Both the position numbers and the translations under genes were made by a program. Shown piece after piece: positions 54,080 through 59,777 of a stretch of DNA of 64,000 bases (positions within the stretch are counted from its first letter, which is position 1; the number at the start of each line of letters is the position of its first letter). The notes beneath the pieces are model-generated. The model was not told where the DNA came from. It searched no databases and was given only the letters and a program-made list of their open reading frames with translations. Source of the DNA: Verrucomicrobiaceae bacterium (GTDB lineage Bacteria; Verrucomicrobiota; Verrucomicrobiia; Verrucomicrobiales; Verrucomicrobiaceae); contig JAIXYN010000022.1 of assembly GCA_027490195.1 (NCBI GenBank), forward strand, positions 62,001 through 126,000, written 5' to 3'.

Positions 54080-55507
54080 ATGTCGTTCTCGTCCTCCGCC
54101 TCCCCCCATCGCTGCTCCGGCCCGTTGTCGCGGCGGAGCTTTCTCAGCCTGGGAACCCTCGGACTTACAGGATGGTCACTGAGCGACACCTTGCGCGCAG
54201 AGACGATTGCCAAGTCGGCGGGAAAACGGCTCAAGGACAAGTCCGTCATCTTTGTCTGGCTGCCGGGCGGCATGTCGCAGCTCGAGAGCTACGACATGAA
54301 GCCGAACGCGCCGGTGGAGTATCGCGGCGTGCTCAATCCGATCCGCACCAAGGTGCCCGGCACGCACATCAGCGAGCTGTTTCCAATGCAGGCGAAGATC
54401 GCCGATAAGTTCAACATCATCCGCAGTGTGCATCACGAGTTTGCGGATCACGGCGGCGGACATAAGCGCTTCATGACCGGGCGCAATCCCGCTCTGCCGG
54501 TCGGATTCGTCAATGATGCGCCCTCGGTCCAGTCGATCATCACTCGCAAGCTTCAACGCGCAGGACAAGCCATGCCAGCCTGTGTGGCTGGTGTGGATCG
54601 CGGTCGCAGCGGCATTGATGTGTTCTCAATGGGTGCGGCCTATCTCGGGCCTTCCGCATCGCCCTTCATGGTGGTGGGAGATCCCAGTGCCAAAGATTTC
54701 AAGATCGAGAACATCGGCCTGACGCCGGACATGGAAGCCCGCATGGACGACCGCATGCACCTGCTCAAGGGCATGGACAATCTGCAGCGCGAGATGGACC
54801 GCAGCGGCCTCATGGAGGCCATGGACAGCTTCAGCCAAAAAGCGTTTGGCATGCTCACCACGCCTTCGGTGCGTGATGCCTTTGACCTTACGAAGGAATC
54901 CACCCAGACTCGCGAGCGCTACGGCTACAGCACCTACGGCCAGCGCGGTCTCATGGCGCGGAGGCTTGTGGAGGCGGGCTGCCGTTTTGTGACGATGGTC
55001 TGGGAGAATCCCTTCTCCACGACCATCCCGAAGAACTGCACCTACAACTGGGACAGCCACGCGGTGAACTGCGACATGTATGCCGACGCCCGCTGGCGCA
55101 TGCCGGTGTATGACCAAGCTGCATCCGCATTGATCGAGGACATCCACCAGCGCGGGCTGGATAAAGACGTGCTCGTCATCATCACCGGAGAGTTTGGCCG
55201 CACGCCCAAGATCAACACTCAGATCGGCACCCAGACCGGCGTGAGCCAGCCCGGGCGCGACCATTGGCCCAGTGCGATGTCCTTCATCGTCAGCGGTGGC
55301 GGCATGCAAACGGGACAGGTCATCGGCGCGACGAATCCACGGGCCGAATACCCCATTGAGCGTCCGCTGAGTCCGAACGACCTCTGGGCCACGGTGTATC
55401 AGCATTTAGGCATTGATCCCGAAGACACGTTTGACGACTTCCAGGGCCGCCCCATGCCCATCCTGCCCTTCGGCGATCCCATCAAGGAACTCCTGCCACT
55501 GGTATGA
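54080..55507 (+). CDS. DUF1501 family secreted protein, second copy
   Basis: 475 residues with a Tat motif (SRRSFLSLGTLGLTGW). DUF1501 motifs are present: FVWLPGGMSQLESYDMKP, HHEFADHGGGHKRFMTG, VIITGEFGRTPKIN and GRDHWPSAMSFIV. It is clearly paralogous to the protein at 4836-6131 but about 44 residues longer, and has a different partner: an esterase and a CxxCH dehydrogenase-like protein rather than DUF1549/DUF1553. Last gene of a three-gene secreted operon. Biochemical function unknown. Confidence 0.92.
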   Translation: MSFSSSASPHRCSGPLSRRSFLSLGTLGLTGWSLSDTLRAETIAKSAGKRLKDKSVIFVWLPGGMSQLESYDMKPNAPVEYRGVLNPIRTKVPGTHISELFPMQAKIADKFNIIRSVHHEFADHGGGHKRFMTGRNPALPVGFVNDAPSVQSIITRKLQRAGQAMPACVAGVDRGRSGIDVFSMGAAYLGPSASPFMVVGDPSAKDFKIENIGLTPDMEARMDDRMHLLKGMDNLQREMDRSGLMEAMDSFSQKAFGMLTTPSVRDAFDLTKESTQTRERYGYSTYGQRGLMARRLVEAGCRFVTMVWENPFSTTIPKNCTYNWDSHAVNCDMYADARWRMPVYDQAASALIEDIHQRGLDKDVLVIITGEFGRTPKINTQIGTQTGVSQPGRDHWPSAMSFIVSGGGMQTGQVIGATNPRAEYPIERPLSPNDLWATVYQHLGIDPEDTFDDFQGRPMPILPFGDPIKELLPLV

Positions 55508-55765: not shown

Positions 55766-56737
55766 ATGCCAGCCTGCCAGATTCTTGTTTTTCAAGACTC
55801 TCCTACGAACCGGCAGGAGCTTGCAGAATGGTTGTCACGGAACGCACCGGACACGCTTGATGTCTCCGGCTGGTGCCGTCGCATGGGATACTGGTGGGAT
55901 GAGAACCCTTTTTCCTCAATCGCTGCTGATCGCGGATGGGTCATGCGGCATGAGGGCCGCCTTGTTGGCTTCATGGCGCTTATTCCCGCTGGCTATGCGG
56001 TGAGCAGCACACTCACGCCCGCCATGATCGCTTCCACCTGGTGCGTGGAGGAGGCTCATCGCAATGCCAGCCTGCCCATGCTGATGAAGCTGCGACGGCT
56101 GGCGGAATGCACACTGATGGCGGATACCACGCCGACTCCTGAAGTACAGATGATGCTGCAAAAAATCGGCTGGACGCCTACCAAGGACATTACACGCCAC
56201 TTCGTGCCGCTGGGCCTTTTTGCACTGCCATTTCGGGGAAAATGGCCAGGATTGGCTTCCGGCAAAAAGCTGACACGAGACCCCTCAGAAGTGCGCAGCA
56301 TCGCCGCCAACTTTCAGAGGCCGGATCGCATCGAAAAATGGATTACACCGGAGTATCTGCGTTGGTTCGCCGCCTCGCCGATGCGGCGCCATGAGTTCAT
56401 TGGCGTGCTGGATGCCTCATGCTGCCTCTCCAGCTACCTGTTCCTGACCCCGAAGAAAATCCGCGGCATCCCTGGCTGGATGGAAGTGGATCATTTTACA
56501 ACCTGCGATGACTTCTCCGAGATTTACGCCCTCATTGGCGAAATCGTGCGGAAGCCCTCACTGCTTGGAAGCGAACGTCTTCTCTCCCTCGCCAGCTTTC
56601 CTGGCGATGACTCCTGGGATGGCGCGCCCATTTTGCATCGACGCGCAGAGCAGGTCGCGCATCACTTCTCCATTCCTGAGGCGATTAAGACGCTGCCAAA
56701 GCAAAGCGTGCTCGCAGAGGGAGACTGGGGAATTTAG
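55766..56737 (+). CDS. GNAT-fold acyltransferase-like protein
   Basis: 323 residues from the ATG at 55766 (MPACQILVFQDSPTNRQEL). The middle carries a GNAT-like pattern: WVMRHEGRLVGFMALIPAG (beta-strands 2-4 and turn), STWCVEEAHRNASLPMLMKL (helix 3) and PEVQMMLQKIGW. Acyl donor and acceptor are unknown. Its 3' end overlaps by four bases the convergent carrier-protein gene, which belongs to a ligase/decarboxylase operon. An acyl-transfer role in the same pathway is a reasonable but unproven reading. No signal peptide. Confidence 0.75.
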   Translation: MPACQILVFQDSPTNRQELAEWLSRNAPDTLDVSGWCRRMGYWWDENPFSSIAADRGWVMRHEGRLVGFMALIPAGYAVSSTLTPAMIASTWCVEEAHRNASLPMLMKLRRLAECTLMADTTPTPEVQMMLQKIGWTPTKDITRHFVPLGLFALPFRGKWPGLASGKKLTRDPSEVRSIAANFQRPDRIEKWITPEYLRWFAASPMRRHEFIGVLDASCCLSSYLFLTPKKIRGIPGWMEVDHFTTCDDFSEIYALIGEIVRKPSLLGSERLLSLASFPGDDSWDGAPILHRRAEQVAHHFSIPEAIKTLPKQSVLAEGDWGI

Positions 56738-56982
56738 ATGAGCTTCTCGATCACCGCCTGAAGGTGGCTCCCGGTGGCAAAGGTGTCCGCCGTCATGAGT
56801 TCATCGGGAATCTGCACGCCGAACTGCTGTTCGATTTCCATTAGCAGATCGATGGAGGCCATGGAGTCGAGGCCAAGCTTGCCAAGATCCTCATCCATCG
56901 GCACCTCGGCGCTGGGCGCTAGGAAGCGGAGCTTCGGGCGGAGGATTTCCTGGAGTTTCTGAGGTAGATCGGTCGCGGTCAT
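56734..56982 (-). CDS. Acyl/peptidyl carrier protein
   Basis: 82 residues from the ATG at 56982 (MTATDLPQKLQEILR); a GTG three codons earlier is less likely. The carrier motif GLDSMASIDLLMEIEQ contains the Ser that takes 4'-phosphopantetheine, followed by the acidic helix II and FATGSHLQAVIEKL. It is 50 bp downstream of the decarboxylase gene on the same strand and should be the carrier to which the AMP-ligase loads its substrate. It is not the fatty-acid ACP by context (no fab genes). Confidence 0.9.
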   Translation of the reverse strand: MTATDLPQKLQEILRPKLRFLAPSAEVPMDEDLGKLGLDSMASIDLLMEIEQQFGVQIPDELMTADTFATGSHLQAVIEKLI

Positions 56983-57032
56983 TGGAAACACTGATTAGAA
57001 TGCATGAAAAAAATTCTCCAGCACTGGAAGAT

Positions 57033-58217
57033 TCAATTCTCGATCACCTGGCTGCCGCGAAAAGCAACTTCCTCGGGCCTCTGGTGGCTGAGGAAGCCCA
57101 GCAGGCTCGCTGTCAGGCCATAAGCTCCCACATTCGGCACGGCGAGCAGATCGCCGACCTCAACAGGCGGCATCTTTTGGCCACGCGCCAGGCTGTCTAG
57201 CGGGCTGCACAGAGGACCCACGACATCGGCAACGATCTCGCCTTCTCTTTCAGCCGTCAGATTGACCAAGGTGAGCGCAGACCGCGGGATGCGACCGAGG
57301 CCGGACATGCCACCGAGGTGATGAATGCCGGTGTCGAGCACGACGAAGGTCTTCGATCCGGCCTTTTTCACATCCAGCACGGTCGTGATCAGCGTTCCGC
57401 TGCTGCCGCAGAGGTAGCGGCCACTTTCAAAGCAGAGCTGGGTCTTGCCATGCAGCGGCGAGGCTTTCCACACGGCATCCAATGCTTCGCGCAGCCCCGC
57501 CAGGTCACTGCCCGCCGAGTCGCTCGCATAGGGCCAGGGGAAGCCGCCGCCAGCGTTGACGACTTGGCATTCAAAGCCTAGCGCAGTCGAAACCCGCGTC
57601 GCCGTCTCCAGGGCGCATTGTGTGTTCTTTGCCAGCGCCTCCACAGAGCCCACCTGGGTGCCGAAGTAAACATGGACACCGTTGACCTTTAAGTTCGGCA
57701 GTTTCAGCCGCTGCGCCGCGCCATCCGCGAACAGCAGCGCCTCATCAAATCCGAACTGGCTTTCCACGCCGCTCATCGCCAGCCGGGCATCAGGAGCCTT
57801 TTGTGGATTCACACGCAGCATGGCGGTGATCTCCACCCCGGCCTGGACCGCCATCTTGGACAACCGCCCGGCATCCGTGTAGCTCTCGCAGGAAAAATGC
57901 GTCACATCATTCTCCAGCATGCGTGCGATCATCTTTTCGGACTTGCCCGGTCCGCCGTAAACGATGCCATTCTCAAAGCCCGCTTTTTGCGCCGCCAGAA
58001 GTTCCCCATCCGAGGTTATCTCCGCCCTCACACCCTGCTTCCTCAGCTCGCGTGCGATGGCAGGAAGTGGATTGGCTTTAAAAGAGTAGTACAGCGGCGA
58101 ACCCTCTGGCAGCGCTGCTTGCAAGGCCTGCAGTCGCTCATTCACCGCATCCAAATCATACGCGTAGAGCGGTGAACCGTACTTTTCGATGAGTTGGCGG
58201 GCGAAATCGGCGTTCAT
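57033..58217 (-). CDS. PLP-dependent decarboxylase, fold type III (DapA-pathway/ornithine type)
   Basis: 394 residues (MNADFARQLIEKYGSPLYAYD). Alanine-racemase-like barrel with PLP lysine Lys47 in YYSFKANPLP, the phosphate-binding Gly-rich loop NAGGGFPWPYA and a Cys in VVGPLCSPLDSLA near the second active site. This matches LysA/SpeC-type decarboxylases of diaminopimelate or related amino acids. It is the second gene of a ligase-decarboxylase-carrier operon, starting 3 bp after the ligase stop. Similar trios occur in exosortase-associated and siderophore-like clusters, where the enzyme acts on a carrier-related amino acid. Confidence 0.9.
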   Translation of the reverse strand: MNADFARQLIEKYGSPLYAYDLDAVNERLQALQAALPEGSPLYYSFKANPLPAIARELRKQGVRAEITSDGELLAAQKAGFENGIVYGGPGKSEKMIARMLENDVTHFSCESYTDAGRLSKMAVQAGVEITAMLRVNPQKAPDARLAMSGVESQFGFDEALLFADGAAQRLKLPNLKVNGVHVYFGTQVGSVEALAKNTQCALETATRVSTALGFECQVVNAGGGFPWPYASDSAGSDLAGLREALDAVWKASPLHGKTQLCFESGRYLCGSSGTLITTVLDVKKAGSKTFVVLDTGIHHLGGMSGLGRIPRSALTLVNLTAEREGEIVADVVGPLCSPLDSLARGQKMPPVEVGDLLAVPNVGAYGLTASLLGFLSHQRPEEVAFRGSQVIEN

Positions 58218-58220
58218 AGC

Positions 58221-59777
58221 TCAAAGGATCGCGCGAAGGGCTTTCCGGTCGATCTTTTGATTCCCGGTTTTTGGAAGTTCCGGAAGCAAAAACACCCGGT
58301 TGGGTACTTTGGCGGGTTCAAGCTTAACGCTGAGCGCTTGGATGATTTGCGACTCGCCGAGCGAAGATTCCGAGACACTCACAAACAGGCACAGCAGATC
58401 CTTAGCCTCGTCTTTGATGCATCCTGCAGCCACGATGCCTGGAATAAGGCAGGCTTCCTCCTCCACCTCAGCAGGACTGAGGCGATGGCCCTTGTGCTTG
58501 ATGAGGAAATCACTGCGTCCATGAATGTACAAGAAGCCATCCACATCCACGCTGCCGAAGTCCCCACTGCGAAGCACACGTGTGCCGTCGAGCACGGGAT
58601 AGCGCTTCGCTGTCTCCTCTGGAGCCCGCCAGTAGCCGAGTGCGAGGTGTGGGCCACGAATGCAAAGCTCGCCTGTCACGCCGGGAGGCAGACGTTTGCC
58701 GTCATCGTCAACGGCGAAAACCTCCGTGCCATCCAGCGGCCTGCCGACAGACTCAAGTTTAGCATCCAACTCGTCAGGCAGCAGAATGGAGACGCGTTTG
58801 CACTCCGTGAGGCCATACATCGGATAAACGAGAGCCTGCGGAAACAACTCGCGAAGGCTGGCGATGTAACTTTGCGGCAGATGATCGCCCGTGCTCGTGA
58901 TGATGCGTATTTTGGGCAGTGGCACCGGGCGGTATCGCTGCATCTTGATAAGGCCGCCAAACAGGGTCGGCACGCCTGGCAGCACACTGATCTCCTGTGC
59001 CGCAAGAATCCGCAGCAGCTCCGGCCCGGCATGCTCCGGCTTGCCAATAAAGATCGACGCCCCTCTGATGGCGGCATAAAAGACCTGGTAGAGGCCATAA
59101 TCAAAACTCAGAGGCAAGAAGATCGCCACCCGATCCTCCGCCCTGTATGGCAGTCTCGCCTGGATTGCGGCGGAGACGAAGCGGACGTTGTCATGCGTCA
59201 AAATCACGCCGCGTGGCGTGCCTGTGGAGCCGGAGGTGAAGACGAGGAAGGCAGGATCAATCTTCAACCCGGGATACGGCACGACTGGCGGTTCCTCCTC
59301 AGCGATCAAATCGGCGAAGTGGCAACCTTCATTCTCGCAGCCGACCCAAACGAGCGACGTTTCTCGGAATTCTTCACGCAGCCAGGCTGTGGCAGAATCC
59401 AGCAGTCCAAGCTTCGGTTCCGTTTGCGACAAAATACGTCGCAGCCCCTCCGGTTTGATTTGAGGGTGCAGTATCACCGAGATGGCACCGATCTGCGCCA
59501 CAGCAAAAAAGAGGAGCACCGTCTCGATGCGATTGTCAGTGACCATCACCACACGGTCATTGTGTCCGATGCCCTGCCTGCTAAGCCAAGCCGCGATGCT
59601 ACAGATGCGTCGCCAGGTCTCCGCATAGGTCAGCTCCTGTGAACCATCCCTAAAATAGATGCTTTCCGGCCACCTGCGGGCACCTTCACGCACATACTCA
59701 GCGATGCACCAAGCCGCTTCGAGGCCATCGAGTTCCGAAGGCGACAGAAATGGAAGCGTGGAAGTGTTCGAAGGCAT
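58221..59777 (-). CDS. AMP-forming acyl/aminoacyl ligase
   Basis: 518 residues (MPSNTSTLPFLSPSELDGL). ANL superfamily: P-loop TSGSTGTPRG at 181-190, YGLTEC motif, GELCIRGPHLALGYW and SGDFGSVDVDGFLYIHGRSD, with the catalytic Lys508 in KTGNQKIDRK at the C-terminus. It activates a carboxylate as an adenylate and passes it to a thiol, here most likely the phosphopantetheine of the neighbouring carrier protein. It resembles exosortase A-associated ligases by gene neighbourhood. First gene of the operon; promoter presumably within 59778-60029. Confidence 0.92.
   Translation of the reverse strand: MPSNTSTLPFLSPSELDGLEAAWCIAEYVREGARRWPESIYFRDGSQELTYAETWRRICSIAAWLSRQGIGHNDRVVMVTDNRIETVLLFFAVAQIGAISVILHPQIKPEGLRRILSQTEPKLGLLDSATAWLREEFRETSLVWVGCENEGCHFADLIAEEEPPVVPYPGLKIDPAFLVFTSGSTGTPRGVILTHDNVRFVSAAIQARLPYRAEDRVAIFLPLSFDYGLYQVFYAAIRGASIFIGKPEHAGPELLRILAAQEISVLPGVPTLFGGLIKMQRYRPVPLPKIRIITSTGDHLPQSYIASLRELFPQALVYPMYGLTECKRVSILLPDELDAKLESVGRPLDGTEVFAVDDDGKRLPPGVTGELCIRGPHLALGYWRAPEETAKRYPVLDGTRVLRSGDFGSVDVDGFLYIHGRSDFLIKHKGHRLSPAEVEEEACLIPGIVAAGCIKDEAKDLLCLFVSVSESSLGESQIIQALSVKLEPAKVPNRVFLLPELPKTGNQKIDRKALRAIL

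Follow-up and report, generated by a model that had tools for sequence, protein, structure and literature searches.

Decarboxylation of an amino acid while it is bound to a carrier protein is familiar from a few antibiotics. In the excerpted account of vicenistatin biosynthesis, VinN loads 3-methylaspartate on the acyl carrier protein (ACP) VinL, and VinO then decarboxylates the bound residue (PMC11284099), while BtrK decarboxylates glutamyl-BtrI (PMC7857480, likewise in excerpt). Here we analyzed a 64,000-nucleotide stretch of a Verrucomicrobiaceae genome (hereafter the window; assembly GCA_027490195.1, contig JAIXYN010000022.1, positions 62,001 to 126,000), in which a stand-alone adenylation enzyme (LIG), a fold-III pyridoxal phosphate (PLP) decarboxylase (DEC) and a stand-alone carrier (ACP) are encoded as a trio that faces the gene of an acyltransferase-like protein (GNAT). 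These parts are of known kinds and make the locus a variant of known aminoacyl-ACP chemistry, which would now be placed in a module of four genes that recurs in a chemically little-known phylum. As a conserved module, the trio with a double GNAT and without a nonribosomal peptide synthetase (NRPS) was not found in the literature searched.

The vicenistatin (VinN-VinL-VinO), fluvirucin (FlvN-type) and bolagladin (BolO-BolC-BolN) cassettes share with the trio the combination of a stand-alone adenylation enzyme, an ACP and a PLP decarboxylase. The likeness extends to the Asp/Ser(Thr)/Arg code of the ligase and, as predicted for the trio, to decarboxylation on the carrier (PMC11284099 and PMC7756342, in excerpt). 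Unlike these cassettes, the window trio has no adjacent VinM-like second ligase and its genome no NRPS condensation domain, and the set ends with a double-GNAT protein rather than VinK, in a verrucomicrobial host. The butirosin side-chain set BtrI-BtrJ-BtrK(-BtrO-BtrH) resembles the trio in that BtrK is the nearest structure to DEC and in that the unit, as predicted here, is made on an ACP; it differs from the trio in that BtrJ is not known to belong to the VinN-type ligases, nor BtrH to the GNATs. BtrO hydroxylates the carrier-bound unit in butirosin, and in this respect the likeness concerns some related loci only, where a luciferase-like monooxygenase lies beside the ACP gene; the window's genome is without it.

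Gene order and conservation of the locus

The four genes occupy the following positions in the window.

58221..59777, minus strand: LIG, a stand-alone adenylation enzyme of 518 amino acids, most likely a VinN-like amino acid:ACP ligase (PF00501, 1.3e-77)
57033..58217, minus strand: DEC, a fold-III PLP decarboxylase of 394 amino acids, BtrK/VinO-like, predicted substrate an aminoacyl-ACP (PF02784, 6.2e-30; PF00278)
56734..56991, minus strand: ACP, a stand-alone carrier of 82-85 amino acids with a GLDSM phosphopantetheine serine (PF00550, 7.9e-10)
55766..56737, plus strand: GNAT, a double-GNAT acyltransferase-like protein of 323 amino acids by predicted fold and conserved linkage, with Arg99, Asp120 and the C-terminus EGDWGI

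All four open reading frames (ORFs) are intact. LIG and DEC are separated by 3 bp, and DEC and ACP by 41 bp if ACP starts at the GTG at 56991, as listed above, or by 50 bp if it starts three codons on, at the in-frame ATG at 56982. The ORFs and the 3-bp spacer thus bore out the tight LIG-DEC-ACP operon of a preliminary description of this DNA, whose 50-bp gap is the ATG-start figure. GNAT is convergent to ACP, and the stop codons of the two genes overlap by 4 bp, the same four-base overlap that had been noted there. The host genome (G000; 7.0 Mb, 95% complete) has as its closest named relatives Verrucomicrobiaceae and Prosthecobacter-like metagenome-assembled genomes.

The LIG-DEC-ACP order with the opposed GNAT was kept in most of 23 compared loci, a set in which some loci are short and some represent the same place fetched twice. 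The ribosomal-protein flank of the window was common to its closest relative (L041) only and occurred in 0/22 other compared loci. Because the gene order recurs while the flanks change, the arrangement is more than chance. Greedy ORF calling defined the genes flanking each locus, and hidden Markov model (HMM) matches were listed from 15 or 30 bits upward; the locus sets, including one of 58 loci, overlap, often in the same organisms, and are not independent of each other.

A survey of 288 Verrucomicrobiales genomes (DEC at E<=1e-55, the GNAT family at E<=1e-10) detected DEC in 44 genomes and the GNAT family in 57, with both present in 43, GNAT without DEC in 14 and neither in 230. By a tally of coordinates, 38 of the 44 DEC genomes have GNAT next to one of the trio genes, comprising 23/29 in the window's family (G235 confirmed) and 15/15 in a second family, f3. 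The arrangement in f3 is different: in 14 loci GNAT comes directly after LIG in the same orientation, with DEC-ACP elsewhere. Three genomes (G155, G156 and G267) have GNAT on a contig other than that of DEC, with the pathway-type residues described below kept. We conclude that GNAT is part of the LIG-DEC-ACP system.

In family f3, a GT4-type glycosyltransferase gene lies directly behind GNAT in 14/14 loci, and a GT4/GT2 protein is encoded nearby in 10/14 DEC-ACP loci of Verrucomicrobiales; clusters of antisense ORFs were disregarded in this comparison. A glycosyltransferase directly behind GNAT was seen only in f3. Close homologues of the f3 enzyme are absent from the window's genome, and the genus has only remote matches (22-26%), so the enzyme is not claimed for the window.

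Ligase, decarboxylase and carrier

The best solved-structure match of LIG was 3wvn (3.4e-85), which we take to be VinN. Residues Asp230, Ser299 and Arg331 of VinN bind the substrate, as given in the excerpted source (PMC7756342), and aligned with Asp226, Thr296 and Arg328 (the latter in an ECKR motif) of LIG, so that the Asp/Ser/Arg set of VinN-type amino acid:ACP ligases is present with a single conservative Ser-to-Thr replacement. LIG is therefore most likely a VinN-like ligase, predicted to load an amino acid on ACP. The substrate code (S/A-FD, a hydroxyl residue, ECKR) was kept in 49/49 aligned LIGs, the window being counted twice, and in 14/14 further loci; a LIG paralogue on contig C15 of the window's genome is without it. 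A short LIG-like piece, an ORF of ~235 amino acids, was found upstream of full LIG in four loci (L126:4878-5423, L127:12960-13502, L208:10097-10636 and L210:5053-5592). For the carrier, the GLDS[ML] motif was present in 68 of the 73 ACP matches above 60 bits in the set of loci scanned.

DEC matched BtrK (2j66, 5.3e-52) as its best solved structure and grouped with BtrK against LysA with 100/100 support in a maximum-likelihood tree, although the exact place of BtrK is unsure because its branch is long. DEC carries the motif GPLCSPLD where the LysA of relatives has GPICESGD, the pattern [GA]PxCESxD being found in 8/11 relatives' LysA loci scanned. The preliminary description would have been contradicted by trio enzymes that fell in lysine-biosynthesis families. 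For DEC we rejected this role, since it reached 224.2 bits against a lysA cut-off of 297.9 bits, lacked the CES motif and stood apart from LysA in the tree. Being nearer to BtrK than to LysA and adjacent to a stand-alone ACP, DEC has the characteristics of the BtrK/VinO type and is predicted, probably, to act on an aminoacyl-ACP in a BtrK/VinO-like manner.

Two kinds of GNAT

GNAT had no Pfam match. Its predicted model (predicted local distance difference test score 93.9) has a GNAT fold and matched Eis2 (Z 16.1, root-mean-square deviation (rmsd) 4.0, 290 residues aligned) and N-myristoyltransferase (NMT; Z 15.1, rmsd 6.3, 291 aligned). Matches of Eis type and to NMT covered nearly the whole protein, with rmsd values of 3.6-6.5 Å overall, and the end of the model aligned with the chain ends of NMT and Eis. 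By its model, GNAT is thus an Eis/N-myristoyltransferase-type double GNAT, which shares with the Eis acetyltransferases and NMT the double arrangement and the position of the C-terminus, and differs from them in its low identity, the lack of a Pfam match, a degenerate P-loop and a predicted ACP donor. Every one of the 33 GNAT proteins aligned has a conserved EGD motif (once DGD) within its last 3-5 residues. In NMT, the C-terminal carboxylate is the proposed general base and is thought to deprotonate the amine (PMC4964394, in excerpt); by analogy, we propose the C-terminal carboxylate of GNAT as a candidate general base.

In the tree of these 33 proteins, from which near-duplicates were left out, one branch with 99/99 support split 19 trio-linked from 13 solitary GNATs, L129 belonging to neither group. 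Arg99 of the P-loop was present in 19/19 trio-linked and 0/13 solitary proteins. At position 120, all 19 trio-linked proteins have an acidic residue (18 with Asp, 1 with Glu), and all 13 solitary ones have His. Arg99, Asp120 and the C-terminus can be named as residues of interest, the first two of which separate pathway members from solitary paralogues, and a GNAT family without a Pfam name acquires a testable role. A mixed GNAT type occurred in one DEC-free genome (G222, L200).

The solitary paralogues (L111-L126, for example L113:6150-7154), with no P-loop Arg and with His in place of Asp120, often lie behind DUF1501/DUF1549-type genes. In a separate case (L186:21-2886 of G188), a contig begins with a fragment of a monooxygenase gene and an ACP gene between two GNAT genes, with LIG and DEC located elsewhere; one of the two GNAT matches contains one in-frame TAG.

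Proposed pathway and alternative explanations

On balance, we consider it probable that the four genes form one pathway, in which an amino acid is loaded on ACP, decarboxylated there and transferred off by GNAT. Because the nearest structures are VinN for LIG and BtrK for DEC, and the substrate residues of VinN are kept, the trio most likely makes an omega-aminoacyl-ACP, which would probably be beta-alanyl-ACP derived from aspartate. We infer the following substrate and order of steps. LIG would use adenosine triphosphate to activate a dicarboxylic amino acid, most likely L-aspartate and possibly 3-methylaspartate or glutamate, at the carboxyl distal to the amino group, and would load the activated residue on the phosphopantetheine of ACP. 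DEC would then remove the alpha-carboxyl from the tethered residue, leaving an omega-aminoacyl-ACP (beta-alanyl-ACP in the case of aspartate), which in some related loci the luciferase-like monooxygenase could hydroxylate. GNAT would move the aminoacyl unit from ACP to the amine of an acceptor, which may be a sugar; the candidate general base is the C-terminal carboxylate of GNAT, as proposed in NMT. We predict aminoacyl-ACP as the donor because these four are the only window genes that stay together across the islands and because the P-loop is without the glycines of the CoA site. The preliminary description had suggested that a small amine or aminoacyl unit may be made and handed to an acyltransferase. 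This reading was strengthened here, with the unit built on a carrier and GNAT as its probable recipient. The surface polymer that it named as a possible destination stays no more than a possibility, since glycosyltransferase linkage was seen only in f3.

A more specific form of this pathway, which the literature searched does not describe, is offered only tentatively: the double GNAT may draw a beta-amino or gamma-aminobutyrate-like acyl group from ACP and, using its own C-terminus as the base, amidate an amino sugar that belongs to a glycan or glycolipid of the cell surface. Were this the case, a butirosin-like side-chain chemistry would have been turned to envelope decoration. If GNAT draws on ACP at all, the known donor range of Eis/NMT-type enzymes would be widened.

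Several observations weigh against the four-gene pathway. One DEC genome of the 44 (G006) is without GNAT, and the surveyed genomes are related, so that the co-occurrence counts are not independent events; a Fisher test on them, which takes no account of relatedness, was given no weight. Two genomes, G023 (L022/L051) and G008 (L020/L056), have DEC-ACP-GNAT without an adjacent LIG, and their ligase was not located. Solitary GNAT paralogues occur in genomes without DEC, and the family is therefore not confined to the pathway. The fold matches to Eis and NMT are at about 6-14% identity, and the P-loop R-N-A-S-L-P is a half fit to the consensus Q/R-x-x-G-x-G/A, with the Arg kept and the glycines replaced. 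The reaction could also run in reverse, as N-acylation on the carrier, which is the main rival. With the same trio, GNAT would then use an acyl-coenzyme A (acyl-CoA) to place a protecting group or lipid tail on the free amine of the omega-amino acid held by ACP, and the product would be released by an enzyme outside the cassette. The NMT-like fold suits acyl-CoA to amine transfer, Arg99 is kept in the trio-linked proteins, and there is precedent: in the excerpted accounts, VinM of vicenistatin adds alanine to protect the amine on the carrier, and N-acylation on the carrier has been proposed in bolagladin (PMC11284099, PMC7756342). The absence from GNAT of the P-loop glycines that bind the CoA pyrophosphate argues against it, however, and, as the islands conserve nothing of the window beyond the four genes, no release enzyme is linked. 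We regard N-acylation as unlikely.

The remaining explanations place the trio or GNAT in other contexts. Supply of a beta-amino starter unit to a polyketide synthase or an NRPS, as for vicenistatin and the bolagladins, would account for the VinN/VinO/VinL-type parts and is in keeping with the second ligase found in most Streptomyces and Micromonosporaceae LIG-DEC-ACP loci. It is quite improbable for the window, whose flanking genes are not conserved along with the island: no second, VinM-like ligase occurred in window-type islands (80-96% DEC identity), each of which had one LIG match, and a search directed at condensation domains, and not genome-wide at polyketide synthase domains, found none in the window's genome (95% complete) or in 3 others of the 10 DEC-positive genomes tested. 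Use in siderophore or NRPS assembly was accordingly rejected for lack of a condensation domain in the window's genome. That GNAT is an unrelated neighbour, with synteny within the genus only, is suggested by the solitary paralogues in DEC-free genomes and by the three genomes with GNAT and DEC on different contigs; the 43/44 co-occurrence amid otherwise unconserved flanks, and the same-strand placement of GNAT behind LIG in f3 with DEC-ACP elsewhere, make it very improbable. A role as exosortase A-type accessory genes acting on a PEP-CTERM glycan is hardly credible. The exosortase A-associated ligase and decarboxylase have their broad families and their pairing in common with the trio, LIG and DEC score highest in NCBIfam with TIGR03098 and TIGR03099, and the window's genome encodes two exosortases. 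However, LIG reached only 284.5 bits against the TIGR03098 cut-off of 592.35 and DEC 256.5 bits against the TIGR03099 cut-off of 478.45, about half in each case. The TIGR03099 label itself carries little information, because a weaker DEC-like match on contig C59 of the window's genome (a LysA candidate) reached 226 bits with that model and 0/106 genomes of the phylum passed its cut-off. Both exosortases lie on contigs other than the window's (C24 and C59), and no LIG, DEC, ACP or GNAT HMM match was found in the 14-16 kb around either. On these grounds the exosortase A kinship that had been suggested earlier was rejected, while the earlier remark that the window itself holds neither an exosortase nor an NRPS was borne out within the searches for exosortases and condensation domains.

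Related loci and neighbouring genes

The island also occurs in a cultured relative, Brevifollis gellanilyticus (L053). Not all related loci have the complete set. GNAT is missing from the stretch compared in L049 and in L057/L149, and LIG from L056. The convergent gene of 322 amino acids in L057 occupies the position of GNAT and was rejected as a GNAT because it is not homologous. The luciferase-like monooxygenase gene lies behind ACP in five distinct Verrucomicrobiota loci (L049, identical to L211, L050, L052, L063 and L065) and is also present in L079 and L089; homologues were found in 2/56 relatives and none in the window's genome.

Just upstream of GNAT, the window carries a DUF1501 gene (54080-55507), one of a very large paralogue family with 94 matches in the whole genome. 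At this number, adjacency to GNAT is expected by chance, and a functional link between the two was rejected.

Outside the phylum, most neighbours in the Streptomyces loci are without a Pfam match. In Myxococcus eversor (L073:3446-9469), LIG-DEC-ACP lies behind a gene for a fused reductase/hydrolase/AurF-type N-oxygenase protein. In the Paenibacillus pinihumi locus (L079:3113-9461), the genes ahead of LIG-DEC-ACP form a set that resembles that of butirosin and encode two ACPs, a protein similar to class II tRNA synthetases, the monooxygenase and a weak BtrH_N match.

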